A model generated the notes under the pieces. That model was given only the letters and a program-made list of their open reading frames with translations. It made no database searches and was not told where the DNA came from. 64,000 bases of DNA from Candidatus Zixiibacteriota bacterium (lineage in GTDB: Bacteria > Zixibacteria > MSB-5A5 > GN15 > FEB-12): positions 1-64,000 of the forward strand of contig JAGNLV010000006.1 of assembly GCA_017999435.1 (NCBI GenBank), given 5' to 3'. A program made the translations under genes and the position numbers. Positions 277 through 52,377 of the stretch are shown in pieces (the first letter of the stretch is position 1; each line of letters begins with the position of its first letter).

Positions 277-2445
277 TCAGCGGCGCCTGAGCATCTCGCG
301 GACAAAGCGGTTGTCGGGAAACCGTTCCGCCATCTCTTTCAGCAGCGCCCCGGCTTCGGCCGTCCGTCCGGCGGCCGTCAGACCCGAATACAGATTCAAG
401 TATCCCTCGGCCTGGTGCGGCGCCAGCTCGACGGCCCTGCGGGCAAAGGCGATGGCCGACTCGATGTCGTTGCCGTTGCCGGCGATGTAGGCCAGTTGAA
501 CAGCGGCCGCGGCGCGCTGGCTGTTGAGTTTGTCGCGGCTGTTGCGGAAGTCGTGGCGAAACGCCTCGTGGTCCATTTCGATCGGGGGGCCCTCCGCCTC
601 GAGCGCGCGGCGGGCGAAACGGCTGGCGGGCGCGAGTGCGCCCCGGTTCAAAAGCAGCTCCGCCCCCATCTGCAGCAGGTAGATGTCGTCCCGGGCGCGC
701 TGCGCGGCGCGGGCGATTTCCCCCGCCAGCGAGTCATCGGACACGGCCGTGTCGGCGGCGAGGGCGCGCACCAGAACGAGGTTGGGACCGGCGGCATAGG
801 GGGCGCGGGCGAGCGCCTGCCGGGCCATACCGATCGCGCCGCGGAGATCGCCGCGCGCCATGGCCACGTGCGCCAGGCTCGTCCAGCCGGGAGCGTACCA
901 CGGGTTGAAACGCACCTCCCGCTGGAAGTACACCTCGGCGGAGTCCGCCTGCTCGAGGGCCAGGAGCACGGACCCGATGTTGGTGTTGACGCCGGGGTAG
1001 ACCGAGTCGACAGCCGCCGCCATCTGGTAGTGCCGCCAGGCCTGGACATAATTCCCCTTCTGATACTCATACCCGCCCGCCTCGACCAGCGGGTGGATGG
1101 AGTAGCCGGTGACCGGCGGCCCGGGCAGGGCGAACGAAACCAGGGCCGCGAGGATGCCGCCTCCGAGAGCGGCGCCGCAGCGGAGACGGCTCTCGCGCCA
1201 GAGGTCGGGCAGTCGGGCGAGGGCGAACCCGGCCAGCGCGAAGTACACCGGTTCCAGCGGCAGGCGGAACCGGGTCGCGTAGAAGAAGACCGCGCCGCTG
1301 AGGATCGACAGGGCGACAAACAGGAGTATCCAGCGCAGCGGCCGCGACGCAAGCGCGCCGGCGGCGAGGCCGGCCACGGCCAGACCGAAGACGAGCGCGA
1401 AGCGGACCGGGTTGAGACGGAGGACGGCGATCCGACTGATGAACGGTTCGAGGTCGCGATTATTGGAGACCGGAGCGTTGCTGAAGAAGAGGAAGAATTT
1501 CCGCGCGTAGAGGCGGAGGAAGGCGCCCGGGTTGTCTTTCATCCAGGCCAGTGCCCGATCGGTCCAGTAGGCGGACACCTCGCCCGGAGTGAGGTCGCGG
1601 CCGAGGTCGCTTTCGGCGATATACTCGGTCTGTTCGAGCCGCCAGTAGGGACCCATGGGCGGCGGCAGCACCGCCGCCGCACCGTCGGCCTCGGGGTTGT
1701 TCCCGATGTAGAGGTTGATGCCGCCCGAGGTGGCGATGAGAGCGGGATCATCGGCCTTGAGGTAGTTCCGGAGCGTGATCGGGCCGATGACGAGGAGCAA
1801 ACCGAGGGCGAGCGCCCCGAGGTGGGGGACCGGGGCGGCGATGCGGCGCCACCGGACCGCCAGCACGAGAACCGCCACCGGAACCATCACGAGGGCGTTG
1901 GGCCGGGTGATGGCGGCGAGGCCGAGGAGGACGGCGAACGTGAGGGCATCGCGGACGGCGCGCGAGTCATACCAGGTCACGAAGCCGTGCAACGCCGCCA
2001 GCAGGAGAAGGGTGTAGAGCGGATCGACCAGCAGTTCCGGCTCGAAATAGACGGCCATCATACAGAGAGCATGAACCAGGCCGGCGAAAAAGCCGGCTTT
2101 CGCGCCGAAGAGCCGGCGCGCCAGCAGACTGGTGAGAGCGACCGAGGCCAGGCCGATCGCCAGGCCGAAGAGCCGCCCGATCCAGAGAGAGTCGCCCAAG
2201 ACCGCATACAGGAGGGCGAGGCAGAACACATAGAAGGGGGCGCGGAAATAGGTGGTGTCGCCGAAGACATCGCCGGCGGCAATATCCTGCGCCCAGTGGT
2301 GATGGTAGTTGGCGTCGACCGTGAGCTGCGACCAGTCGCCGGTGGCGTGGTACTGGAAGAGATAGACCACGCGCACCAGGAGGGCGACAGCGAGGACGAC
2401 GAGAAGCCCCCAGCGGTCGAAAAATCCTCGCGACCGATCAACCAT
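277..2445 (-). CDS. GT39-like membrane glycosyltransferase with C-terminal TPR repeats
   Basis: 722 aa. Residues about 12-400 alternate hydrophobic segments in the style of the PMT_2/GT39 (ArnT/PMT-like) superfamily. An acidic first loop (VDANYHHHW, about residues 43-51) sits where this family carries its catalytic Asp. From about residue 430 the protein becomes soluble and repetitive, with several TPR-like helices (for example PGVNTNIGSVLLALEQADS and APGWTSLAHVAMARGDLRGA). The family moves sugars from polyprenyl-phosphate donors to lipid or protein acceptors on the outer face of the inner membrane; donor and acceptor are unknown here. The start ATG lies 5 nt from a TATATT box with no Shine-Dalgarno sequence, suggesting a leaderless mRNA. 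Confidence 0.8.
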   Translation of the reverse strand: MVDRSRGFFDRWGLLVVLAVALLVRVVYLFQYHATGDWSQLTVDANYHHHWAQDIAAGDVFGDTTYFRAPFYVFCLALLYAVLGDSLWIGRLFGLAIGLASVALTSLLARRLFGAKAGFFAGLVHALCMMAVYFEPELLVDPLYTLLLLAALHGFVTWYDSRAVRDALTFAVLLGLAAITRPNALVMVPVAVLVLAVRWRRIAAPVPHLGALALGLLLVIGPITLRNYLKADDPALIATSGGINLYIGNNPEADGAAAVLPPPMGPYWRLEQTEYIAESDLGRDLTPGEVSAYWTDRALAWMKDNPGAFLRLYARKFFLFFSNAPVSNNRDLEPFISRIAVLRLNPVRFALVFGLAVAGLAAGALASRPLRWILLFVALSILSGAVFFYATRFRLPLEPVYFALAGFALARLPDLWRESRLRCGAALGGGILAALVSFALPGPPVTGYSIHPLVEAGGYEYQKGNYVQAWRHYQMAAAVDSVYPGVNTNIGSVLLALEQADSAEVYFQREVRFNPWYAPGWTSLAHVAMARGDLRGAIGMARQALARAPYAAGPNLVLVRALAADTAVSDDSLAGEIARAAQRARDDIYLLQMGAELLLNRGALAPASRFARRALEAEGPPIEMDHEAFRHDFRNSRDKLNSQRAAAAVQLAYIAGNGNDIESAIAFARRAVELAPHQAEGYLNLYSGLTAAGRTAEAGALLKEMAERFPDNRFVREMLRRR

Positions 2446-2450
2446 GCCGC

Positions 2451-2456
2451 AATATA
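2451..2456 (-). promoter_or_regulatory. -10 box placed for a leaderless transcript
   Basis: Minus-strand TATATT ends 5 nt before the ATG at 2445, which puts transcription start at or next to the start codon. No good -35 is seen. Confidence 0.5.
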
Positions 2457-7043: not shown

Positions 7044-7844
7044 ATGGCGAACCGATGCGCATGGGTGTTCGGCGCGGCGTTGGCGGCGGCGGTGACGGCT
7101 GCCGGGTGCGGGGGAGGCGGGACCCTGGCTATCGTGGCCGACCGCAGCGACGGCTTGGCGGCCGATGGCGCGGCGCGGGACTGGGATGCGCTCAGCGCGC
7201 GGTACATCGAAGCCGACCGCGTCGTCGTGGGGGCGGCCACCGACGGCGAACGCCTGTTCGTGCTGCTGCGGTTCCGCGACCCCCAGTACGCGGCCCAGAT
7301 CAGGAGCGAGGGGCTGACGCTCGCGCTGGATCCGACGGGGGGGTTCGGCGAGCGGTTCGTGCTTCACTATCGGGGAATGCCGGCGGGCACCGACGGCGTG
7401 CCGGCGGCGTTGCAGGCCGAGCTTCGCCGCCTGCGGTCAGCGGCGCCCGGCGACACGCTCCGGGCGGAAGAACTTCGGATTGCCATCCGCGATGAAATTG
7501 AGACCAAACCGATTCCGGCCACCGGGGAGGAGGGACCATCGGCCGCCGCCGGTTTCGACCAGGGTTTCTTCGTCTACGAGTTCCAGGTGCCGCTGGGGAA
7601 GTCGGCCGTTCGGCAGTACCGGGTGCCCGCGGCGCCGGATGCGGAAGTCGGGGTGGTGCTGGAGTGGGGCGGGCGGGCTGAGGCGGATCTGCTGAACGAA
7701 ATTGCGGGCGGCGGGCTCATGGTGGACGGTCCGCTGTTTCCGACCGCCGACGAGCCGCCGCGCCGCGACGGGGCGGAGGATCCGGGCAAATCGCGTCTCG
7801 GCCGGCATGAGATTCGATTGCGGGTCAGCCTGGGCGGGCGCTAA
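7044..7844 (+). CDS. Lipoprotein with a DOMON/CBM9-like fold (putative)
   Basis: 266 aa. The N-terminus has a short positive region, an Ala-rich core and TAAGC, a lipobox with Cys22, so it is likely anchored to a membrane. The opening part of the mature protein (DGLAADGAARDWDAL, then ATDGERLFVLLRFRD) resembles the start of CBM9/DOMON-like beta-sandwich domains that bind sugars or haem. This is a weak, pattern-level match. The rest is polar with a charged tail. An ATG 33 nt upstream is in frame, but the start at 7044 has a GGAG-type site and begins the signal peptide. Its 3' end overlaps the convergent phosphotransferase gene by 4 nt. Confidence 0.6.
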   Translation: MANRCAWVFGAALAAAVTAAGCGGGGTLAIVADRSDGLAADGAARDWDALSARYIEADRVVVGAATDGERLFVLLRFRDPQYAAQIRSEGLTLALDPTGGFGERFVLHYRGMPAGTDGVPAALQAELRRLRSAAPGDTLRAEELRIAIRDEIETKPIPATGEEGPSAAAGFDQGFFVYEFQVPLGKSAVRQYRVPAAPDAEVGVVLEWGGRAEADLLNEIAGGGLMVDGPLFPTADEPPRRDGAEDPGKSRLGRHEIRLRVSLGGR

Positions 7845-9844
7845 AGCCCGCGCCGCTGCGCCTCCGGGAGGGTCGCCTGCTCGGCGGCCTGCAGGTAGTA
7901 GTGCAGCCGCCTCTGCAGACGCCGGAGAACATCGGGGTACTGCTCGTTCACCATGGCCTCTTCCTGTCCGAGAAAGTCGGGGTCGAACAGGCCGGGCTTG
8001 CCGCCGAGGTGTTCCAGCAGAAAGAAGTCGGGGACGAGATACCCTATCCGATACGAGCTGTTGAATATGGCGAAGCCGGAGTCGGCGGGGGGGACTCGGA
8101 GGATGTCCCGTCCCCAGCTCTCGTGCGTGTAGTCCCCTCCGAGGAGTCCCATGAGGGTGGGGAGCAGGTCGCACTGCCCCGAGTAGGTGGCGATCGTGCG
8201 CCCCGAGTCGCCCAGCAGCGCCGGGCCGTAGATGAGCAGGGGAATGTGGAGGTTCACGGGGCTCAGGGAGTTGCTCGCCACGCCCCAGAGAGCATGGTCG
8301 GCGGTGAAGACGAAGATGGTGCTGTCGAAGACCGGCCGGTCGGCCGCCTCTGCCATGAACCGGCCGATCGCCCAGTCGGCATAGATCTGCGCATTGTAGA
8401 TCCGCGAGAGCCGGTCGTCCCCCTGATAGCGGCGCACGGAGGAGTCGGGCAATTCAAACGGACTGTGATTGGAGAGCGTCAGGATGGTCAGTTGAAACGG
8501 CCGGGGGAGGGTGTCGGCCAGCTCGAGCGCGCTGCGGAGCAGGAGGTGGTCCGGAATCCCCCACTTGGAGAACGACCGCTCCCGCCCAAGATCCTCCTCG
8601 CCGAGGATGCGGTCGTACGCTTTCGTCCGCAGAAATCCCCCCATGTTGTCGAAGACAAGGTCGCCGCCGTAAATGAAGGCATTGACGTAGCCGCGGCGGC
8701 GGAGAATCTCCGACAGCATCACGAAGGGGTGGCGCGCTTCATAGCGCTTGAGGATTGACCGGCCGGGGACCGAAGGAAAGGAACCGATGGCGCCGGCGAT
8801 GCCGTACGAGGTCCGCGTGCCGGTCGCGAAGAAATTCGAAAAGAGGATCCCCCGGCGGGCAAGCGAATCGAAACAGGGCGTGAGGTTCTCCGGGGAGCCG
8901 AGCACGCCGGTATTGCGGCCGGAGAAACTCTCCATGAGGACAAGGACGATGTTGGGCCGGAAGCCGAATTTCGGTTCCGGCTGATGCGTGGTCCGCCGGA
9001 GCGACCGGCCCGGCTCCAGCCAGGTGTCGCCGGGCAGGTCGAGCATGGCCCGGACGGTGTCGATGGCCTCGGAGAACTCGGTGAACTCCCAGCGGTCGGG
9101 CGGCCGGAGGGCGGAGAGCCGGCCGTCGTGCTCGGTCGCGGTGCGCCCGAGGGTGTACACGCCGTTGAGGGCGAGCTGGTTGATGAAGTGATTGTGGCTG
9201 AAGTAGGCCACTCCCCAGTCGATGGGGGCGAGATCCACCCGGCCGCGAATACCCAGCGCCGCCAGCAGCACGAGCAGCACCGTGTAGCCGGTGGCGACCG
9301 GCCAGCGGCGCACCAGCGGGAGCGGCCGGACCAGCCGCCGGACGACGAGCAGGCCGAGCGTGAGCAGCCCGGCCAGGGCGACCCACACCCCGGTCAGCGA
9401 CCAGAACGAGGAATCGAACAAGACAAGGTTCCAGGCCGTTCGCCCCTCGGTGAGGTAGTCGATGACGTGGAAATTCAGGTGGTTATCGAATTCCTCGAAG
9501 AAGCGGATGTCGCCGAGCAGGAGGAGGAAGAGGACGCTGCAGACGGCCACCAGGTAAATGATGGCGAGGCCGAGGCGCGGGCGGCGCATGAGAAAGGGGA
9601 GTCCTGCCACCAGCGGCAGGAGAACGGCAGCAATGACCACCGTGTCAAAGCGCAGGCCGACGGCGAAAGCGAGGAGGAGGGGACCGAGGCCGGCGGCGCG
9701 CACCTCGTGCGGGAAATGCAGAAGGAAGACCAGGCGCGCGGCCGCGAACACGATCAGACCGACCAGGTAGGCGCCGAAAAGAAACGCCACGGCCCGGGGC
9801 GGCGCGAGCGGGGAACGCGGGGTGTCGGTCGGGCTATCGGCCAT
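7841..9844 (-). CDS. LtaS-like membrane phosphoglycerol transferase / sulfatase-fold enzyme
   Basis: 667 aa. Five hydrophobic segments (about 18-46, 55-85, 90-111, 146-168, 183-200) precede an extracytoplasmic alkaline-phosphatase-superfamily domain from about residue 297. Visible family features are NIVLVLMES with Glu305 as metal ligand, Thr345 in GTRTS as the likely nucleophile, and TADHALWG with the metal-binding Asp-His near the end. LtaS, OpgB and related enzymes transfer phosphoglycerol or phosphoethanolamine to polymers or lipids outside the cytoplasm. In a Gram-negative-type cell, decoration of a periplasmic glycan or lipid is more likely than lipoteichoic acid synthesis. The start codon directly follows a strong promoter. 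Confidence 0.85.
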   Translation of the reverse strand: MADSPTDTPRSPLAPPRAVAFLFGAYLVGLIVFAAARLVFLLHFPHEVRAAGLGPLLLAFAVGLRFDTVVIAAVLLPLVAGLPFLMRRPRLGLAIIYLVAVCSVLFLLLLGDIRFFEEFDNHLNFHVIDYLTEGRTAWNLVLFDSSFWSLTGVWVALAGLLTLGLLVVRRLVRPLPLVRRWPVATGYTVLLVLLAALGIRGRVDLAPIDWGVAYFSHNHFINQLALNGVYTLGRTATEHDGRLSALRPPDRWEFTEFSEAIDTVRAMLDLPGDTWLEPGRSLRRTTHQPEPKFGFRPNIVLVLMESFSGRNTGVLGSPENLTPCFDSLARRGILFSNFFATGTRTSYGIAGAIGSFPSVPGRSILKRYEARHPFVMLSEILRRRGYVNAFIYGGDLVFDNMGGFLRTKAYDRILGEEDLGRERSFSKWGIPDHLLLRSALELADTLPRPFQLTILTLSNHSPFELPDSSVRRYQGDDRLSRIYNAQIYADWAIGRFMAEAADRPVFDSTIFVFTADHALWGVASNSLSPVNLHIPLLIYGPALLGDSGRTIATYSGQCDLLPTLMGLLGGDYTHESWGRDILRVPPADSGFAIFNSSYRIGYLVPDFFLLEHLGGKPGLFDPDFLGQEEAMVNEQYPDVLRRLQRRLHYYLQAAEQATLPEAQRRGL

Positions 9845-9849
9845 GACGC

Positions 9850-9877
9850 AATTAACGGCGCACGGGCGTCATGTCAA
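9850..9877 (-). promoter_or_regulatory. Consensus promoter of the LtaS-like gene, leaderless geometry
   Basis: Minus-strand TTGACA (9872-9877) and TTAATT (9850-9855) are separated by 16 nt. Only 5 nt separate the -10 from the ATG at 9844, so the first transcribed base should be at the start codon. No ribosome-binding site is present. Confidence 0.7.
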
Positions 9878-23176: not shown

Positions 23177-23248
23177 CGACGGGGCTCTTCGGCGGACTCC
23201 GGCACAGGCCGGGGTCCGCGCGGCGACGAGGGCCGGGTGGAACCGATC

Positions 23249-23278
23249 TTGACGGCGCCGGTCGAATCGGCGTACCTT
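23249..23278 (+). promoter_or_regulatory. Promoter of the HAD phosphatase, near-leaderless
   Basis: TTGACG (23249-23254) and TACCTT (23273-23278) are separated by 18 nt. Expected transcription start is near 23285, about 3 nt before the GTG at 23288. Confidence 0.55.
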
Positions 23279-23287
23279 AGCCTCGCT

Positions 23288-24079
23288 GTGACAAGAGGAA
23301 GACTGCAAGGAATCAGCGGCATCCTGTGCGATATCGATGGCGTCCTTTGGGACAGCCAGGATCGCAAGAGGCCGACGCCGGGGGCGCACGAGGCTATCCG
23401 CTGCATCAAGGAAGAACGGCGTCTCCCGGTGCGCTTCGTCACCAACACCACCACCCGCAGCCGCGACACGCTCTACCGGGAAATCCGCCAGCGGGGCTAC
23501 CCGATTGAGCGGGACGAGATTGTCGCGCCGACCACGCTGGGTGCCGAGTGGCTTCGCAGGAAAGGACGCCCCAGCGTCTTCCTGGTCATGCGCGAGGACA
23601 CGCAGGAGGAATTCGCCGAGTTCCCGCGCGACGATGTGCGGCCCGACTACATCGTGATCGGCAACAACCGCGACCGGTGGGACTATGCCCTGGTGAACCG
23701 GATTTTTCTCATGCTCGTCAACGGCTCCGAGATGCTCGCCCTGCACAAGCAGCGTTACTGGCAGAGCGGGGACGACATCGCGGTCGATATCGGCTGTTTC
23801 GTGACCGGGCTGGAATACTCCAGCGGGAAGCGCGCGACCGCGATCGGCAAGCCCGAGCCGCTATTTTTCCAGGCGGCGCTCGAGGCGATCGGGGTGGCGC
23901 CGGCGGAAGCGATCATGGTCGGTGATGATATCGAGACGGACATCGGGGGGGCGCAGCGGGCCGGGCTGCGGGGTGTGCTTGTGCGCACGGGCAAATTCCG
24001 CGAGTACCTCGTGCGGCAGTCAACGGTGGCCCCGGACCTGGTGATTGCCTCGCTGGGGGACCTGCCATCGCATCTGTAA
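23288..24079 (+). CDS. HAD-superfamily phosphatase of the LHPP/NagD type
   Basis: 263 aa. HAD motif I is CDIDGVLWDS (nucleophile Asp), motif II is FVTNTTTRS, and motif III/IV is IGKPEPLFF followed by MVGDDIETDIGGAQRAG. The large C2-type cap between motifs II and III matches the LHPP/NagD/p-nitrophenyl phosphatase group. The natural substrate is unknown. The frame is open to a GTG at 23237, but the promoter overlaps that stretch, so I use the GTG at 23288. Confidence 0.85.
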   Translation: MTRGRLQGISGILCDIDGVLWDSQDRKRPTPGAHEAIRCIKEERRLPVRFVTNTTTRSRDTLYREIRQRGYPIERDEIVAPTTLGAEWLRRKGRPSVFLVMREDTQEEFAEFPRDDVRPDYIVIGNNRDRWDYALVNRIFLMLVNGSEMLALHKQRYWQSGDDIAVDIGCFVTGLEYSSGKRATAIGKPEPLFFQAALEAIGVAPAEAIMVGDDIETDIGGAQRAGLRGVLVRTGKFREYLVRQSTVAPDLVIASLGDLPSHL

Positions 24080-24136: not shown

Positions 24137-24164
24137 TTGAATTCGGGCCGGCTTTGCCTTACTT
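24137..24164 (+). promoter_or_regulatory. Promoter of ruvC, leaderless geometry
   Basis: TTGAAT (24137-24142) and TTACTT (24159-24164) are separated by 16 nt. The -10 ends 6 nt before the ATG at 24171, so the start codon is the expected first base. No ribosome-binding site is seen. Confidence 0.55.
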
Positions 24165-24170
24165 GAGCCT

Positions 24171-24662
24171 ATGCGCGTGCTAGGCATCGATCCCGGACTG
24201 CAGATCACCGGGTACGGGGTGATCGAGGACGGCGGGGGAGCGCCGGTGGTGCTCGAAGCCGGTGTGATCCGGACGACGAGCGGGCATGATATGTCCTTGC
24301 GCCTGCATGAGTTGTCGTGCGAGATTAAAGGGGTGATCGAGCAGTTCCGGCCGGATATCATCGCTGTTGAGGAGCTGTATTCGCACTACGGTCACCCGCG
24401 CACGGCGATTATCATGGGGCACGCCCGAGGAATCGTGTTCCTCAAAGCGGCCGAGGCCGGGGTCGCGGTGGTCCCGTACGCCTCGACGCGCATCAAGAAG
24501 TCGCTGACGGGCAACGGCCGGGCGAGCAAAAGGCAAATGCAGATGATGATCCGTTCGGCCCTGCACCTTCCCCGCCCACCGGAACCCCCCGATGCGGCCG
24601 ATGCGCTGGCGGTGGCGCTGTGCCACTGCCGGGCGGCCGCGCACCACGAGGTGGCCGTATGA
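24171..24662 (+). CDS. ruvC: Holliday junction resolvase RuvC
   Basis: 163 aa. It cuts four-way DNA junctions made by recombination. Catalytic acids are visible in LGIDPGLQITGYG, AVEELYSHYG and PPDAADALAVALCH. The length is standard. It heads ruvC-ruvA-ruvB with ATGA and TGATG overlaps, so the resolvase and branch-migration motor are made together. Confidence 0.94.
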   Translation: MRVLGIDPGLQITGYGVIEDGGGAPVVLEAGVIRTTSGHDMSLRLHELSCEIKGVIEQFRPDIIAVEELYSHYGHPRTAIIMGHARGIVFLKAAEAGVAVVPYASTRIKKSLTGNGRASKRQMQMMIRSALHLPRPPEPPDAADALAVALCHCRAAAHHEVAV

Positions 24663-28546: not shown

Positions 28547-28575
28547 TTTTGTCGGGACCGGGCGGCGCGTATATT
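28547..28575 (+). promoter_or_regulatory. Promoter of the ispD operon
   Basis: TTTTGT (28547-28552) and TATATT (28570-28575) are separated by 17 nt. Expected start is near 28582, one base before an in-frame GTG at 28583. Confidence 0.6.
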
Positions 28576-28624
28576 CCCGCCCGTGGCCGGACGCCATGGC
28601 CGGCGTCCCGCCGAAACCGGAAAG

Positions 28625-29329
28625 ATGCGCGACCGCATGATCACCGCAGCCGTCATAGTCGCCGGCGGGCAGTCGCTCCGCTTCGGCGGCGAAGTCCCGA
28701 AGCAGTTTCGGGAAGTCGCCGGGCGGCCGCTGTTGGCCTGGACCATCAGCCGCTTCGAAGCGGCCGGCTCCATCGACCGGATTGTGGTCGTGGCGGCCGA
28801 AGACTATCTCGGCTACGCCGGAGAACAGGTTGTGGACCGGTACGGGTTCGCGAAGGTGCAGCAGATCGTCTCCGGCGGGACCGAACGCCGGGAGTCGGTG
28901 TGGAGAGGGCTGGAAGCGCTGCCGATCGCCACCGGTTTCGTGGCCATCCATGACGGCGCCCGGCCGCTGGTCCGGCCAGCCGACATCGACCGCGTCGTCG
29001 GCGCGGCGAAGCGGGACCGGGCCGCCATCCTCGCGGTCCCGGTGCCCGACACGCTCAAGCGTGTGCGCGACGGCTACGTGATCGCAACCGTGGACCGCAG
29101 TTACCTGTACGGCGCGCAGACGCCGCAGGTGTTTCAGTACGATCTCATCATGGCGGCGCACCGGGAGGCGGCCGGCGCGGCCGGGCGGTATACCGACGAT
29201 GCGTCGATGGTGGAGAGCCGCGGATTCAAGGTGACGGTGGTGGAGCCGAGCGGACCCAACATCAAAATCACGACCCCGGAGGATCTGGTCATCGCCGAAG
29301 CCCTCCTGGCCAGGGAGGGGCATGGCTGA
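28625..29329 (+). CDS. ispD: 2-C-methyl-D-erythritol 4-phosphate cytidylyltransferase IspD
   Basis: 234 aa from the ATG at 28625. Third step of the MEP isoprenoid pathway (CTP + MEP). The nucleotide-binding loop AAVIVAGGQSLRFGG-EVPKQF and the later VAIHDGARPLV and DDASMVES blocks are the family signatures. The start could also be ATG 28637, or a leaderless GTG at 28583 that would add 14 residues. Fusion with ispF is common in other bacteria; here the two genes are separate but overlap by 8 nt. Confidence 0.9.
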   Translation: MRDRMITAAVIVAGGQSLRFGGEVPKQFREVAGRPLLAWTISRFEAAGSIDRIVVVAAEDYLGYAGEQVVDRYGFAKVQQIVSGGTERRESVWRGLEALPIATGFVAIHDGARPLVRPADIDRVVGAAKRDRAAILAVPVPDTLKRVRDGYVIATVDRSYLYGAQTPQVFQYDLIMAAHREAAGAAGRYTDDASMVESRGFKVTVVEPSGPNIKITTPEDLVIAEALLAREGHG

Positions 29330-46229: not shown

Positions 46230-47870
46230 ATGGCCAAGTTGATTGGGACCGACGGACTGAAAGTCTACGCGTTCGATCTGCCGCCGGGCAGTTACGTGGT
46301 GGGCCGAAACGCCGACTGCGGAATCTGTATCCCCGATCGGACGGTCTCCCGCCGCCACGCCGAGCTCGAGGTGGAAGCGGCCGGGGCGAACATCTGGGTC
46401 GCCGACCTGGGCAGCCACAACGGGACGAGCGTCAACGGCCTGCGGATCTCGGCCCGCACGGCGGTCAAGCCGGGCGACATGATCATCTTCGGCCAGGTGG
46501 AATTCCGGCTGACCGACGACCCGGATGCCGGCGTCCGCTCCAATCTCACGAGGCTGTCCGCAGTGGAACCGGAGCGCTCCGTCTATCTCGATATCAGCGA
46601 GGCCCTCAAGCCGCTCCCGGCGCGGGTGACCGACCGACCCGAGGTGGTCCCGACGATTTTTGAGATGGCCAAACTGCTCGTTCTGCCCGAGCCGGAGCAG
46701 GTGCTCCTGGAGCGCTCGCTCGGGCTGATCGCCCGGCTCATCCCGGCCGACCGGCTGGCGGTGCTCGTCCGCGGGGAAGGCGACGAGCTGTACACGGCGG
46801 CCACGCTCCTGCCGGAGGGGAAGGACATGGGGGAGTTCCGCCTCTCCAGCACGATTGTGCGGGAGATCCTGACCGACAAGCAGTCGATCGTGGTGGGCAA
46901 CCCGATGGAGGACCCGCGATTCGCGCAGCAGCAGTCGATCATCCTGTCGGAGATGAAGTCGGCCATGGCGGTGCCGCTCTTCGACGAGGGGAACGTCCAC
47001 GGAATCCTCTACGTCGACACGACCAACCCGCTCCACCGTTACAGCGACGAGTACCTCCGCCTGCTAGCGACGTTCGGGAACATCCTCGGGGCGCGCATGC
47101 TCAGTTACACGCTCCAGCGCGAGCGGCAGGAGAAGCACGTGATGGAAGCGGAACTGGCGCGGGCGGCCTCGATTCAGAAAAACCTGCTGGTGCAGGCGTA
47201 TCCCACGCCCGGTGGGTACGACCTCCATGCCTTTCAGGAGCAGAGCCGGGCGGTCGGGGGGGATCTCTACGACATCGCTGCGCTGCCGGACGAACACGTG
47301 TTGTTTCTGGTGGCCGACGTGAGCGGGAAGGGCATGGGGGCGGCGCTGCTCATGTCCAACATCCTTGCCTCGTTCCGCATCCTCTACGACCAGGCGGATT
47401 TTGACCTGTGCCGCATGGTGCGGCTGGTATCCACCCAGATGTACCGCTACAGCGCCCCGGAGAATTTCGCGACCCTCTTCGTCGGGGTCATCGATGCAGC
47501 GACGCACGAGATCCGGTTTGTCAACGCCGGCCACAACCCCCCGATCGTCGTGCGGGCCGACGGACGCCACGAACACCTGCCGGCTTCCGGAATCATGATC
47601 GGAGCCATGCCCTTCGATGCCTGGTCGGAGGAGCGCGTCACGCTGCAGCCGGGGGAATCGCTCGTCGTCTTCACCGACGGTGTCACCGAGGCCGAGCGGG
47701 CGGACGGATCGCTCTTCGGGGAGGACCGGCTCGAGGCGGTGTTGACCGGGGCGCGGGGGCAGGCCCCGGCCCACCTGTGTGAAACGATAATGAAGGAGAT
47801 CCGGCGGTTCGTCGAGAACGCTCCGCAGTCGGATGACATCACGATGCTTGTTGTGCAAAGGAAGGCATGA
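46230..47870 (+). CDS. FHA-GAF-SpoIIE (PP2C-type) signalling phosphatase
   Basis: 546 aa. Residues about 22-95 are an FHA domain with the phosphothreonine-binding pattern GR (25-26), SRRH (40-43) and SHNGTSVNG (62-70). Residues about 150-295 are a GAF domain (AKLLVLPEPEQVLLERSL, then MAVPLFDEGNVHGILYVDTT). A short coiled linker leads to a SpoIIE/PP2C Ser/Thr phosphatase at about 325-545 (GGDLYDIA, VADVSGKGMGAALLMSN, FTDGVTEA, DDITMLVV), with metal-binding Asps in place. The FHA would bring it to phosphoproteins and the GAF may sense a small ligand. It overlaps the kinase gene by 4 nt (ATGA), so kinase and phosphatase are coupled. Confidence 0.9.
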   Translation: MAKLIGTDGLKVYAFDLPPGSYVVGRNADCGICIPDRTVSRRHAELEVEAAGANIWVADLGSHNGTSVNGLRISARTAVKPGDMIIFGQVEFRLTDDPDAGVRSNLTRLSAVEPERSVYLDISEALKPLPARVTDRPEVVPTIFEMAKLLVLPEPEQVLLERSLGLIARLIPADRLAVLVRGEGDELYTAATLLPEGKDMGEFRLSSTIVREILTDKQSIVVGNPMEDPRFAQQQSIILSEMKSAMAVPLFDEGNVHGILYVDTTNPLHRYSDEYLRLLATFGNILGARMLSYTLQRERQEKHVMEAELARAASIQKNLLVQAYPTPGGYDLHAFQEQSRAVGGDLYDIAALPDEHVLFLVADVSGKGMGAALLMSNILASFRILYDQADFDLCRMVRLVSTQMYRYSAPENFATLFVGVIDAATHEIRFVNAGHNPPIVVRADGRHEHLPASGIMIGAMPFDAWSEERVTLQPGESLVVFTDGVTEAERADGSLFGEDRLEAVLTGARGQAPAHLCETIMKEIRRFVENAPQSDDITMLVVQRKA

Positions 47871-50800
47871 TGCTGCAGCCCGGACAGGAATTTGCCCATT
47901 TCCGGATCATGCGGGAACTCGGCGCCGGCGGCATGGGAGCCGTGTACCTGGCCGAGGATCTCAAACTGCACCGCGAGGTGGCGCTCAAGATCATTCTGGC
48001 GGAGTACTTCAATGACGCCGAGCGGCTCGGGCGTTTCCAGCGGGAGGCGAAGATGGCCGCCCGCATCGCCCACCCCAACGTTATGGGCATCTACGACATC
48101 GGGAGCGCGCCCGACCCCGACACCGGCCGGGACCTCGAGTACATCGTCATGGAGCGCGTGAAAGGCATTCCCCTGGGCGAGTATTTCCAGAGCGCCAAGC
48201 CCGACATGGGCGGCGTGATCCGGGTCGCCTCGCGCATCGCCGCCGGACTGGCCGCCGCCCACAAGCTGAACATCGCCCACCGCGACATCAAGGCCTCGAA
48301 CATCCTGGTCGACGACGAGGGGAACCCCAAGATCCTCGACTTTGGCCTTGCCAAGCCGGTCGACCCCGTCCAGTTCGACGAGGGCGACCGCACCGACACC
48401 GTGTCGCAGGAACTGACGCGCGCCGGCAAGATTGTCGGCACCGTCTCCTACATGTCGCCCGAGCAGGCCCGCGGCGACGCCGTCGACATCCGCACCGACA
48501 TCTTCTCCTTCGGCGTCCTGCTCTACCGCATGGCCACGGGCGAATTCCCCTTTGCCGGCCAGTCGCAGGTGACGACGCTGGCGAAAATCCTCGAATCGAA
48601 ACACGAGCCCCCCCGGCTGAAAAACCAGCAGATTCCGACCGAACTCGAACGGATCATCGACAAGTGCCTGCAGAAAGATCCTAATGACCGGTACCCGTCG
48701 GCCGCGGATTTGACGGTCGACCTGCGCAACCTCCGCCGGCAGTTCGATTCCGGCGTGACCGAGTCGATCTCGGGCGAGTACCGGGTGGAGAGGACGGTCC
48801 GGGTCGGCGGGAAGCGTCTGGCTGCGATCGCCGCCGGTCTTGTCGTCGTCGGAATTGTCGCGGTGATCGTCTGGCGCTCCGGCGGGGAGCGGCCGGGGGG
48901 AGCCGGCCCCGGCGGAATCTCGCCCTCGGTGACGACCCCCGGCGGCAACGCGGTCGCGGTCTTCGATTTCGAGAACAAAACGGGGGACACCTCGCTCAAC
49001 TGGCTCCAGACGGGCCTGCCGGAGATCCTCATGACCGACCTGGCGCAGACCGGGTCGATCACGGTCATCAGCCGGGAGCGCGTGCTCGACCACTTGCGCA
49101 CCGGGTCGGACCTGCCGGATGCCGACGAGATTTCGGACGACGTGCGGGCCGAAATCGAGCAGGCCCGGGACGAGATTCGCGAGGCGGTCAAAAGCGGGTC
49201 GCTCGACGGCGTGCCGGCGGTCAAGGATGCGCTGGAACTGGCGCGGGTGAGCGTGGCCGGACTGATGCGCCCGCACACCTACGCCGAGATGGCCCAGGCG
49301 GCCGGGGCGCTCGGCGCCTCCACGGTCCTCTCCGGGTCCTTCTTCAAGCTCGGCGAGCGTATCCGCATCGACGCGCGGCTCGAAGACATCGGCAGCGGGA
49401 AGATCGTGCTGGCGGAGAAGGTGATGGGGAACGATCCCTTCGCCCTCGTCGACAGCCTCACCGGCAAGATCGTCGCCTCGCTCAATGTCAAGGACCAGAT
49501 GGCCGACCAGTCGGTGGCTAACGTCATCACCGGGTCGCCCGAGGCATACAGGCTCTACCGGGAGGGCATGGACCTCTTCGGGCTGGGGATGAACGACGAG
49601 GCGATCGCGAAGTTCGAGGCGGCCGCGGGCGTCGACTCGGCCTTCGCGCTGGCCTACATGCGGATCGCCATGGTCCATGTCTTCGAGGGACGGCTGCAGA
49701 AGGGGATGCAGTATCTGGCCCGGGCCGATGCGTTCAAGGAGAGTCTGCCGGTGCGCGAGCGGTCGCTGCTGGATATCTACACCGACCTGTGGCTCGAGCA
49801 GGAACTCGACGCCGCCTTTGTCAAGCTCCGCGCCTATGTCGAAAACTATCCGTCGGACAAAGAAGCCCGCGTCCTGTTCGGACTGGCCACCTGGGTGTTT
49901 AACCAGGACACCGCGGCCGCCCGCGCCCAGTACGACACCGTCCTTCGGGCCGACCCGGTCAACCTGCGGGCGCTCGCCTGGACGGGCGATCTCCTGCGCC
50001 AGTCGGGGCAGCTCGATTCGGCCGTTTACTACTACCGCAAGGTCAAGGCGTACCACCCCGATTCGCCCGAGGGGTACACGAACCTCGGCGCGCTCTATCG
50101 CGAGCAGGGGGACATCCCGGGCGCGGCCCAGGAATACCTTCTGATGTCGGAGGCGTTTCCGCGCCTGGCCGCGCCGTGGATGAATCTCAGCACGCTGGCC
50201 ATCCGCCAGCGCGACTTCGAAGGCGCCGGGCGCTTCCTTGACGAGTACCGCGGGCGGACCGGGAAAGATCCCTACGGCCTCTACGAGTACGAGATGCAGT
50301 TGTCGGGCCTGGAGCAGTGGCGGGGGCAGTTCCGGTCGGCCCGCGACCATATGCGCGCGGCGCTGGACTACGCCCGGCAGACGAAAGACAGCAACTACGT
50401 GCGCAGCGCCTACAATACTCTCTTCTCATTCTACCGGCGTCTCCATATGGACGACAGCGCCCTGTGGTGCGCCCGGCAGACCGAGCCGTGGTCGACGGGC
50501 ATCGCCCGCCTGAATGTCGCCATGAATTACGCCGAGGCCGCCCCGGCCGACTGCGGCCGCGCCCGCGCGTTCCTGGAGGAAGGCACCGCGGCTTTCAAGC
50601 AGCGCGTCCCGTCCGGCTTGTGGCCGGTGGCCGAGGCCGTGGGCGAGGCATTCGACGGCTACTGCGCGGGCGACACGGCCGCCGTCATCGCCGCGCTGCT
50701 GAAGCTCAGCAGTGCGCAGCAGCCGGGGCAGGGGGAGGGCAACCGCCGCGAGGCCGGCGTGCTCCAGGTGCTCACGGGACACTACCGGGAAGGGCGCGAC

Positions 50801-51016
50801 ATCCTTGTCCGGTCGCTCTCCGGCAAGGATGAGGTCGCCTCCGGAGCGACCTATCCGTATTTTCTTTACCTCGTCGGGGTGGCGGAGCAGGAACTGGGCG
50901 ACACCAAGTCGGCCATCGCCCGTTTCGAGGAGATGCTGCGCTACTGGGGCAAGCCGGACATCGAGACCAAGGAGATCGCCGACGCGAGGCGGCGCCTGGC
51001 GGCGCTGCGCAGCTAG
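47867..51016 (+). CDS. Transmembrane Ser/Thr protein kinase with CsgG-like and TPR extracytoplasmic part
   Basis: 1049 aa. The kinase (about 10-290) is complete: GAGGMGAVY loop (19-27), Lys41, Glu60, HRDIKASN with catalytic Asp140, DFG (158-160) and the APE-like SPEQ. One membrane helix follows at about 318-336. Outside the membrane, residues about 360-530 look like a CsgG/FlgO-type domain (VAVFDFENKTGD, LTDLAQTGS-like opening, VLSGSFFKLGERIRIDARLED), then many TPR repeats to the end. The kinase thus links an envelope sensor to cytoplasmic phosphorylation, with the upstream phosphatase as likely antagonist. A rho-independent terminator follows. Confidence 0.92.
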   Translation: MMLQPGQEFAHFRIMRELGAGGMGAVYLAEDLKLHREVALKIILAEYFNDAERLGRFQREAKMAARIAHPNVMGIYDIGSAPDPDTGRDLEYIVMERVKGIPLGEYFQSAKPDMGGVIRVASRIAAGLAAAHKLNIAHRDIKASNILVDDEGNPKILDFGLAKPVDPVQFDEGDRTDTVSQELTRAGKIVGTVSYMSPEQARGDAVDIRTDIFSFGVLLYRMATGEFPFAGQSQVTTLAKILESKHEPPRLKNQQIPTELERIIDKCLQKDPNDRYPSAADLTVDLRNLRRQFDSGVTESISGEYRVERTVRVGGKRLAAIAAGLVVVGIVAVIVWRSGGERPGGAGPGGISPSVTTPGGNAVAVFDFENKTGDTSLNWLQTGLPEILMTDLAQTGSITVISRERVLDHLRTGSDLPDADEISDDVRAEIEQARDEIREAVKSGSLDGVPAVKDALELARVSVAGLMRPHTYAEMAQAAGALGASTVLSGSFFKLGERIRIDARLEDIGSGKIVLAEKVMGNDPFALVDSLTGKIVASLNVKDQMADQSVANVITGSPEAYRLYREGMDLFGLGMNDEAIAKFEAAAGVDSAFALAYMRIAMVHVFEGRLQKGMQYLARADAFKESLPVRERSLLDIYTDLWLEQELDAAFVKLRAYVENYPSDKEARVLFGLATWVFNQDTAAARAQYDTVLRADPVNLRALAWTGDLLRQSGQLDSAVYYYRKVKAYHPDSPEGYTNLGALYREQGDIPGAAQEYLLMSEAFPRLAAPWMNLSTLAIRQRDFEGAGRFLDEYRGRTGKDPYGLYEYEMQLSGLEQWRGQFRSARDHMRAALDYARQTKDSNYVRSAYNTLFSFYRRLHMDDSALWCARQTEPWSTGIARLNVAMNYAEAAPADCGRARAFLEEGTAAFKQRVPSGLWPVAEAVGEAFDGYCAGDTAAVIAALLKLSSAQQPGQGEGNRREAGVLQVLTGHYREGRDILVRSLSGKDEVASGATYPYFLYLVGVAEQELGDTKSAIARFEEMLRYWGKPDIETKEIADARRRLAALRS

Positions 51017-51096: not shown

Positions 51097-51125
51097 TTGT
51101 CAAGGGCCGGCCGATGTCGTTAATT
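51097..51125 (+). promoter_or_regulatory. Promoter of the MFS transporter, near-leaderless
   Basis: TTGTCA (51097-51102) and TTAATT (51120-51125) are separated by 17 nt. Expected start is near 51132, 4 nt before the ATG at 51136. Confidence 0.55.
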
Positions 51126-51135
51126 GCACGCCACT

Positions 51136-52377
51136 ATGATTGCCCGAAGCGCCCGCTACCTCCGCCAGTTCGATCTGAATCTCTGGATCCTGTCTTTCGG
51201 GTGGTTCAACAGCTCGATGGGATTTTCCATCAGCCTGCCGTTCATCTCGATCTACTTCTATTCCGAGTTCGGCATGTCGATGACCGAGATCGGCGTCTTT
51301 TTCGGCGCTTTGGCTTTTGTCCGGTCGTTCTTCCAGGCGGTCGGGGGCGAGGCCTCGGACCGGATCCAGCGCCGGTGGCTGCTGGTGTACTCACAGTATG
51401 CCCGTGCGGTGTCGTTCTTGGCGATGGCGGCCTCGATTCATTTCCACCTCGGGTTCTGGGCGACGGCTGCGGCCCTCGCCGTCAACTCGATCCTCGGCGC
51501 CATATTCCAGCCCGCCGCCAACGCCACGGTCGCCGACATTCTGCCCAAGGCGCAGCACCTCGACGGTTACGCGATCACGCGGTCGGCGGGCAACCTCGGC
51601 TGGGCGGCGGGGCCGGCGATCGGGGGATTCCTCGCGGGCTGGTCGTACGCGGCGCTTTTTGCCGTCTCGGCCCTCATGGCGCTCCTGTCCGGGCTGGTGT
51701 TCCACCTGCTCCTGCGCGTGCCCGAGGCGACCCGGGCGGTCGACCGCTTCCGCCTCCGCGACATCCTGACCATCCGGGATGACCACCACCTCCTTCGCCA
51801 CGCCGCCCTCCTGTTCCTGCTCTACCTCGTGGTGGCCCAGCTCACCGTGCCGTTCTCCGTCTACAGCGTGGAGATGGCCGGCATCAGCAAGGTCCAGCTG
51901 GGCACGCTGTACACGATCAACGGGCTGCTGGTCGTGGCGCTGCAGATCCCGGTCACGCGGCTGCTCAGCCGCTTCACGCTGACGGCGCAGATCGCGATGG
52001 GATCGTTCTTCTACGCGGTCGGGTATGGCTCGGTCGGGATACTGGTGGGATATCACTATTTCGCCCTGGCCATGGTGGTGGTGACGATCGGCGAGGTGAT
52101 CATGTCGCCGCCGACGCTCACGCTGACCTCGCGCCTGGCGCCGGAGGGGCGCATGGGCCGCTACATGGGCGTGCACGGGTTTGTCGTCGCTTCGGGATGG
52201 TCCTTCGGGCCGCTCTACGGCGGCGTGATTCTCGACCATTTCCCCCACACCTGGTCGGTCGCCTGGATGATGATCGCGTCGCTGGCGCTCGTCTCGGGAG
52301 CCGGCTACCTGTGGTTCCGGCGCTGTCTCCCCGAGGCGGTGAACAAGGCGCGCTACGCGCCGCCGGTCACCGAATGA
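51136..52377 (+). CDS. MFS transporter
   Basis: 413 aa with 12 predicted membrane helices in two halves. The loop between helices 2 and 3 reads GGEASDRIQRRW, an MFS motif A-like stretch. The layout resembles drug/metabolite exporters; the substrate is unknown. No ribosome-binding site precedes the ATG. The 3' end overlaps the convergent exoprotein gene by 11 nt. Confidence 0.85.
   Translation: MIARSARYLRQFDLNLWILSFGWFNSSMGFSISLPFISIYFYSEFGMSMTEIGVFFGALAFVRSFFQAVGGEASDRIQRRWLLVYSQYARAVSFLAMAASIHFHLGFWATAAALAVNSILGAIFQPAANATVADILPKAQHLDGYAITRSAGNLGWAAGPAIGGFLAGWSYAALFAVSALMALLSGLVFHLLLRVPEATRAVDRFRLRDILTIRDDHHLLRHAALLFLLYLVVAQLTVPFSVYSVEMAGISKVQLGTLYTINGLLVVALQIPVTRLLSRFTLTAQIAMGSFFYAVGYGSVGILVGYHYFALAMVVVTIGEVIMSPPTLTLTSRLAPEGRMGRYMGVHGFVVASGWSFGPLYGGVILDHFPHTWSVAWMMIASLALVSGAGYLWFRRCLPEAVNKARYAPPVTE

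Follow-up and report, generated by a model that had tools for sequence, protein, structure and literature searches.

The stretch of DNA analyzed here (the window, 64,000 nt, positions 1-64000 of contig C6) belongs to a 3.5-Mb, seven-contig genome of an uncultured member of Candidatus Zixiibacteriota, a phylum that the NCBI taxonomy places in the FCB group. The assignment rests on YebC, which is 79% identical to the protein of a Candidatus Zixiibacteriota MAG and whose nearest matches fall mostly in this phylum; an alphaproteobacterial origin, considered at first, was rejected on these grounds. The genome is 98% complete and has a GC content of ~65%. It is the sole member of its genus among the genomes compared, and its family comprises ~53 relatives in some 30 genera. 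Six start codons in the window, two of them on the reverse strand, directly follow a -10-like hexamer (Table 1). A preliminary description had quoted -10 boxes, gaps and spacers for these sites, the gap being the number of nucleotides between the -10 box and the start codon, and direct reading of all six confirmed every hexamer, spacer and gap. Its remark that the starts lack a Shine-Dalgarno (SD) sequence also holds (0/6 with SD). The window further contains, at 46230-51016, a gene for a FHA/GAF/SpoIIE-type phosphatase with a 4-nt overlap with the start of a gene for a 1049-aa PknB-like Ser/Thr kinase with TPR repeats.

Table 1 Promoter boxes and candidate leaderless genes in the window. Scores are those of the bipartite promoter model.
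Feature	Position	Strand	Remarks
-10 box TATATT	2451..2456	-	5 nt before ATG 2445; score 7.8
PMT_2 / TPR protein ORF, predicted leaderless	277..2445	-	PF13231 8.4e-15
-35 box TTGACA of membrane sulfatase gene	9872..9877	-	read directly; TTGAC kept in most family orthologs
-10 box TTAATT	9850..9855	-	5 nt before ATG 9844; spacer 16; score 9.2
Membrane sulfatase / LtaS-like phosphoglycerol transferase ORF, predicted leaderless	7841..9844	-	PF00884 1.2e-38
-35 box TTGACG, upstream of alternative GTG 23288	23249..23254	+	score 8.1
-10 box TACCTT	23273..23278	+	9 nt before GTG 23288; spacer 18; not conserved, 1/19 relatives
HAD-IIA hydrolase ORF from GTG 23288	23288..24079	+	gene caller's start 23237
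-35 box TTGAAT of ruvC	24137..24142	+	TTGAT/A in family; ungapped over 30 orthologs
-10 box TTACTT	24159..24164	+	6 nt before ruvC ATG; spacer 16; score 6.0
ruvC, predicted leaderless	24171..24662	+	NF000711 1.3e-48
-10 box TATATT	28570..28575	+	7 nt before GTG 28583 (ispD); score 8.6
ispD from GTG beside TATATT	28583..29329	+	TIGR00453 1.3e-71; gene caller's start ATG 28625
-35 box TTGTCA of MFS gene	51097..51102	+	read directly
-10 box TTAATT	51120..51125	+	10 nt before ATG 51136; spacer 17; score 8.5
MFS transporter, predicted leaderless or with a 2-4 nt 5' UTR	51136..52377	+	PF07690 8.4e-43

The sites were scored with a bipartite promoter model trained solely on promoters at gaps of 30-100 nt, a choice made against circularity; the model converged on TTGACa-17-TATATT. 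Dinucleotide-shuffled upstream regions exceeded a score of 6 at any gap of 4-11 in 0.43% of cases. For the 34 operon-first genes of the window, ~0.15 sites with scores >6 are expected by this measure, compared with 6 observed.

Genome-wide analysis used a sample of 1.25 Mb of the source genome (~36%), the window included. A total of 1029 genes were called by codon usage alone, blind to promoter and SD. Genes were taken as operon-first (n = 584) if they are divergent from the preceding gene or follow it at a distance of 60 nt or more, and intra-operon genes (n = 291) served as the comparison class. The latter carry a strong G-rich, GGAGG-type SD with a mixture weight of 0.87. The source genome gave no 16S rRNA match and the anti-SD was not found; the rRNA operon may lie behind the 5,200 N present in 600 kb of contig C1. 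The simple pattern TANNNT showed a peak of 32 matches at gaps 5-7 in operon-first genes over a background of ~4 per position, and no such peak in the intra-operon genes. Bipartite matches (score >5) at gaps 5-7 numbered 39 among the 584 operon-first genes, while 20 shuffles that preserve dinucleotides gave 1.6 on average and never more than 4, so the -10 distances, which the preliminary description had proposed to compare with shuffled upstream regions, do differ from them. The gap profile is bimodal, with a sharp peak at 6, few matches at 0-4 and 13-22, and a broad rise from ~30 up. Models cross-trained by contig reproduced the peak at gaps 5-7. Expectation maximization (EM) from a weak TATATT/TTGACA prior led to TTG(A/C)C-17-TATATT with a gap mode of 6 and a weight of 12.8%, compared with 2.0% in intra-operon genes, and addition of a leaderless class to the model raised the log-likelihood from 192 to 363.

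A gap mixture assigned gaps 4-8 to 6.7% of operon-first genes (bootstrap 4.7-8.9%), versus 0.1% in shuffles and 0.4% in intra-operon genes. Among promoter-bearing genes the leaderless share is 11% (8-15%), or 13.5% with gaps 9-11 included. When alternative starts were allowed, gaps 4-10 were found in 69 genes versus 16 in shuffles (~9%). The leaderless layout therefore applies to about 7-10% of operon-first genes, a genome-wide share set for the source genome only. The earlier claim that leaderless mRNAs are common needs to be toned down accordingly: the class is clear, but its share is modest. Free EM on small samples was set aside: for E. coli (128 genes) it assigned 20% of genes to a 'leaderless' class whose motif made no sense, and relearning on shuffles gave large weights as well. 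The conclusions therefore draw on the motif trained at gaps 30-100, on transfer of a fixed motif and on conservation. A 400-kb sample of a genome of the same family (G020) and pooled Zixibacteria loci lay above shuffles, the G020 peak being weak; in a 400-kb sample of a genome of the same order (G088), the peak did not stand out from shifted windows. The same pipeline applied to plasmid 1 of Deinococcus deserti, a species known to be rich in leaderless genes, gave 23 TANNNT matches in a peak at gaps 5-7, with a background of ~1 per position; applied to E. coli K-12, it produced no TANNNT peak at these gaps.

The 38 best cases, chosen without regard to SD, differ from leadered genes in more than promoter position. 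An SD score >2.5 is found in 49% of leadered genes but in 0% of these cases. The start codon is ATG in 95% of them, against 80% of the 275 leadered genes, the sample being small. The -35 element of the leaderless class (T0.79 T0.83 G0.72) lies at a spacer of 17 nt. Beyond the window the class includes genes for the exonuclease VII large subunit, a DEAD-box helicase, Dus, phosphofructokinase, NAD kinase, a lipoyl ligase-like protein and a cation-efflux transporter. Several DNA repair and recombination genes (ruvC, ligA, xseA, DEAD-box helicase) were noticed among the candidates.

Conservation was assessed in orthologs from the family, whose start codons were chosen motif-blind, by asking for a bipartite promoter at gaps 4-10; shuffle means for the tested genes were at most ~1. 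Such a promoter precedes ligA in 29/29 orthologs (SD in 0/29) and obgE in 30/30 (SD in 2/30). It is also present in 21 of 25 MFS transporter orthologs, mostly at gap 9, in 14 of 17 membrane sulfatase orthologs (shuffle mean 0.44), and in 24 of 30 ispD orthologs, where a -10 score >3 occurs at gaps 6-9 in 29/30. The ispD relatives start with ATG 6-9 nt past TATATT, and the same layout is seen in members of another family (f4) of the order. For ruvC the -10 boxes are weak and 14 of 30 orthologs score >4, compared with 1.0 in shuffles; over 30 genomes the -35 box, spacer, -10 box and ATG nevertheless align almost gap-free. Outside the family, obgE of G088 has TATATT 9 nt before ATG. The PMT/TPR gene lacks a canonical -35 box and scores as bipartite in only 4/25, yet TATATT followed by a start codon within a few nt is found at 25/25 loci. 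In contrast, the proximal promoter was absent from control genes of the same genomes (ruvA 0/30, ispF 0/30, yebC 0/12), which have SDs in 20/30, 20/30 and 12/12 cases, respectively; in 11/12, yebC also has an ordinary upstream promoter. Among the window sites, the exception is the HAD gene at 23288: the boxes are present as described, but the layout recurs in just one of 19 relatives and is not conserved.

In many PMT/TPR orthologs (L263-L286), a shared T-rich element with CAGG after it (TTTTTGCAGG / TTTTACAGG) lies ~20-25 nt before the conserved TATATT, which is too far for a normal -35 box. This element may be the site of a regulator or belong to another type of promoter; in the copy of the window itself it is not apparent. 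At four Zixibacteria loci beyond the close relatives (L078, L079, L082, L097), the end of an ORF, apparently yebC, lies directly before ruvC, which starts at or beside its stop codon. The presence of a putative leaderless promoter of its own for ruvC in the family of the source genome, as against a yebC-adjoining start elsewhere, may represent a switch of initiation mode within the phylum.

These data bear on whether the hexamers could be chance AT-rich matches that have no promoter function. Single -10 hexamers are cheap, as TANNNT occurs by chance at 3-6 of the 584 genes per position. However, the exact gap peak, the paired -35 boxes at 17+/-1 nt, the absence of the layout inside operons and the family-wide conservation make such an origin scarcely credible. 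Chance is refuted for the class, but it may account for an individual site that is not conserved, such as 23288. It is also very improbable that the start codons are mis-assigned, with a downstream codon in use and the boxes giving ordinary leaders. The gene caller did prefer ATG 28625 over GTG 28583 for ispD and GTG 23237 over GTG 23288 for the HAD gene. Against this, residue 1 of ruvC, ligA, obgE and the MFS transporter is the ATG adjoining the box in nearly all relatives, MRVLGIDPG being aligned at residue 1 in the ruvC relatives, and the start regions of these four sets of orthologs contain almost no SD. For the HAD gene, TIGR01458 (7.9e-61) matches the ORF that starts at 23237 from residue 27 onwards, consistent with a start near 23288. 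The caller's start for ispD is probably misplaced. Translation of ispD from GTG 28583 would give an apparent N-terminal extension of ~14 residues (28583-28625) relative to the relatives.

The more substantial alternative is that the transcripts are not strictly leaderless and have very short 5' UTRs of 1-5 nt, with initiation still independent of SD. The usual distance from a -10 box to the transcription start is 6-7 nt, so that gaps of 7-10 predict UTRs of 1-4 nt. The gaps at 51136 and 23288 would accordingly predict 5' UTRs of ~2-4 nt rather than none at these two of the six sites, and gaps of 9 in most MFS orthologs and of 7-8 in ispD point the same way. For 51136, and for the ispD and MFS orthologs at gaps 7-10, a UTR of 1-4 nt is as likely as none. 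The genome-wide gap mode of 6, on the other hand, places the predicted start on the A of ATG, and for the class as a whole the short UTR is a possible, if less probable, state of affairs. Alternatively, the proximal promoter may be one of several, with leadered or read-through transcripts also made and the leaderless mRNA a minor isoform. A second weak promoter-like site (gap 32, score 4.9) at ruvC, and the same-strand genes that precede several candidates, fit this idea. A second promoter scoring >6 at gaps 20-74 is, however, present in 0/29 ligA and 1/30 obgE orthologs, and SD is absent in 29/29 and 28/30 of them, respectively, so that a leadered form would be without a ribosome site; this explanation seems unlikely.

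The promoters, their spacing, the absence of SD and the conservation in the family are direct observations on the DNA. The source genome very probably combines leaderless, or nearly leaderless, initiation with SD-led initiation, and the genome-wide statistics and family conservation strongly support the mixture of modes put forward in the preliminary description. Most genes have an SD, the operon-first ones among them having a sigma70-type promoter (TTGACa-17-TATATT) ~30-100 nt upstream. In a minority of operon-first genes, the -10 box of this promoter is only 5-7 nt, and at most 10 nt, away from the start codon. Transcription would be expected to begin on the A of AUG or a few bases from it, which would leave no space for an SD in the resulting leaderless mRNA, and ribosomes may be recruited by the 5'-terminal AUG and initiator tRNA in a 70S/IF2-type process, as in other bacteria (PMC9031893).

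Many bacteria are known to have leaderless genes in which a -10 box precedes the start codon, and leaderless transcription is predicted in 21.6% of bacterial species, a figure cited by the StartLink+ paper (PMC9581028). Average leaderless shares are 13.3% in Acidobacteria, 19.2% in Actinobacteria and 39.4% in Deinococcus-Thermus (Zheng et al. 2011, BMC Genomics 12:361, PMC3160421). The share in the source genome is close to the first and below the other two, although the denominators differ. The leaderless genes of that survey, with a TA-like signal ~10 bp upstream, likewise have the -10 directly before the start and are mixed with SD-led genes. The signal in high-GC groups is, however, a low-information TAnnnT, whereas the source genome has the full TATATT plus a -35 box. 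The survey table has no Zixiibacteriota row, and the present data follow conservation gene by gene over ~30 genera. In Deinococcus-Thermus, leaderless mRNAs arise from a -10 motif located a few bp before the ORF, and the distance between this motif and the start codon is important (Life Sci Alliance 2025, PMC12340547). There the -10 box alone suffices and a -35 box enhances, whereas in the source genome a -35 TTG-C is present at 17+/-1 nt. The class is thus not made up of -10-only promoters of the Deinococcus type, with the PMT orthologs as a potential exception. Leaderless and SD-led genes likewise coexist in Mycobacterium tuberculosis and other mycobacteria, but were established there by transcription start site mapping and ribosome profiling (PMC3898074, PMC4633059), while the class in the source genome is predicted from sequence and conservation. 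FCB-group genomes, those of the better-known members, are described as using non-canonical AT-rich, non-SD ribosome-binding sites (PMC9581028), in contrast to the canonical GGAGG-type SDs and leaderless genes of the source genome.

A literature search for leaderless genes in Zixibacteria found no earlier report among the papers covered, and the database records retrieved included no cultivated member of the phylum. The case appears to be a new lineage for a known kind of initiation, with an unusually clear gene-by-gene conservation of the predicted layout. A mixture of canonical SD and leaderless initiation inside the FCB group bears on the gain and loss of initiation modes. In practical terms, gene callers blind to leaderless promoters can misplace starts in Zixibacteria genomes. 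The obgE (30/30) and ligA (29/29) orthologs provide a ready set in which selection for leaderless initiation could be told apart from mere tolerance of it. A core housekeeping set (obgE, ligA, ruvC, ispD and others) might be kept leaderless for functional reasons, selectively maintained over ~30 genera of differing GC as a jointly controllable translational class, a proposal that we regard as doubtful. If it is true, the leaderless housekeeping genes could be controlled together, for example through initiation factors or ribosomes changed under stress.
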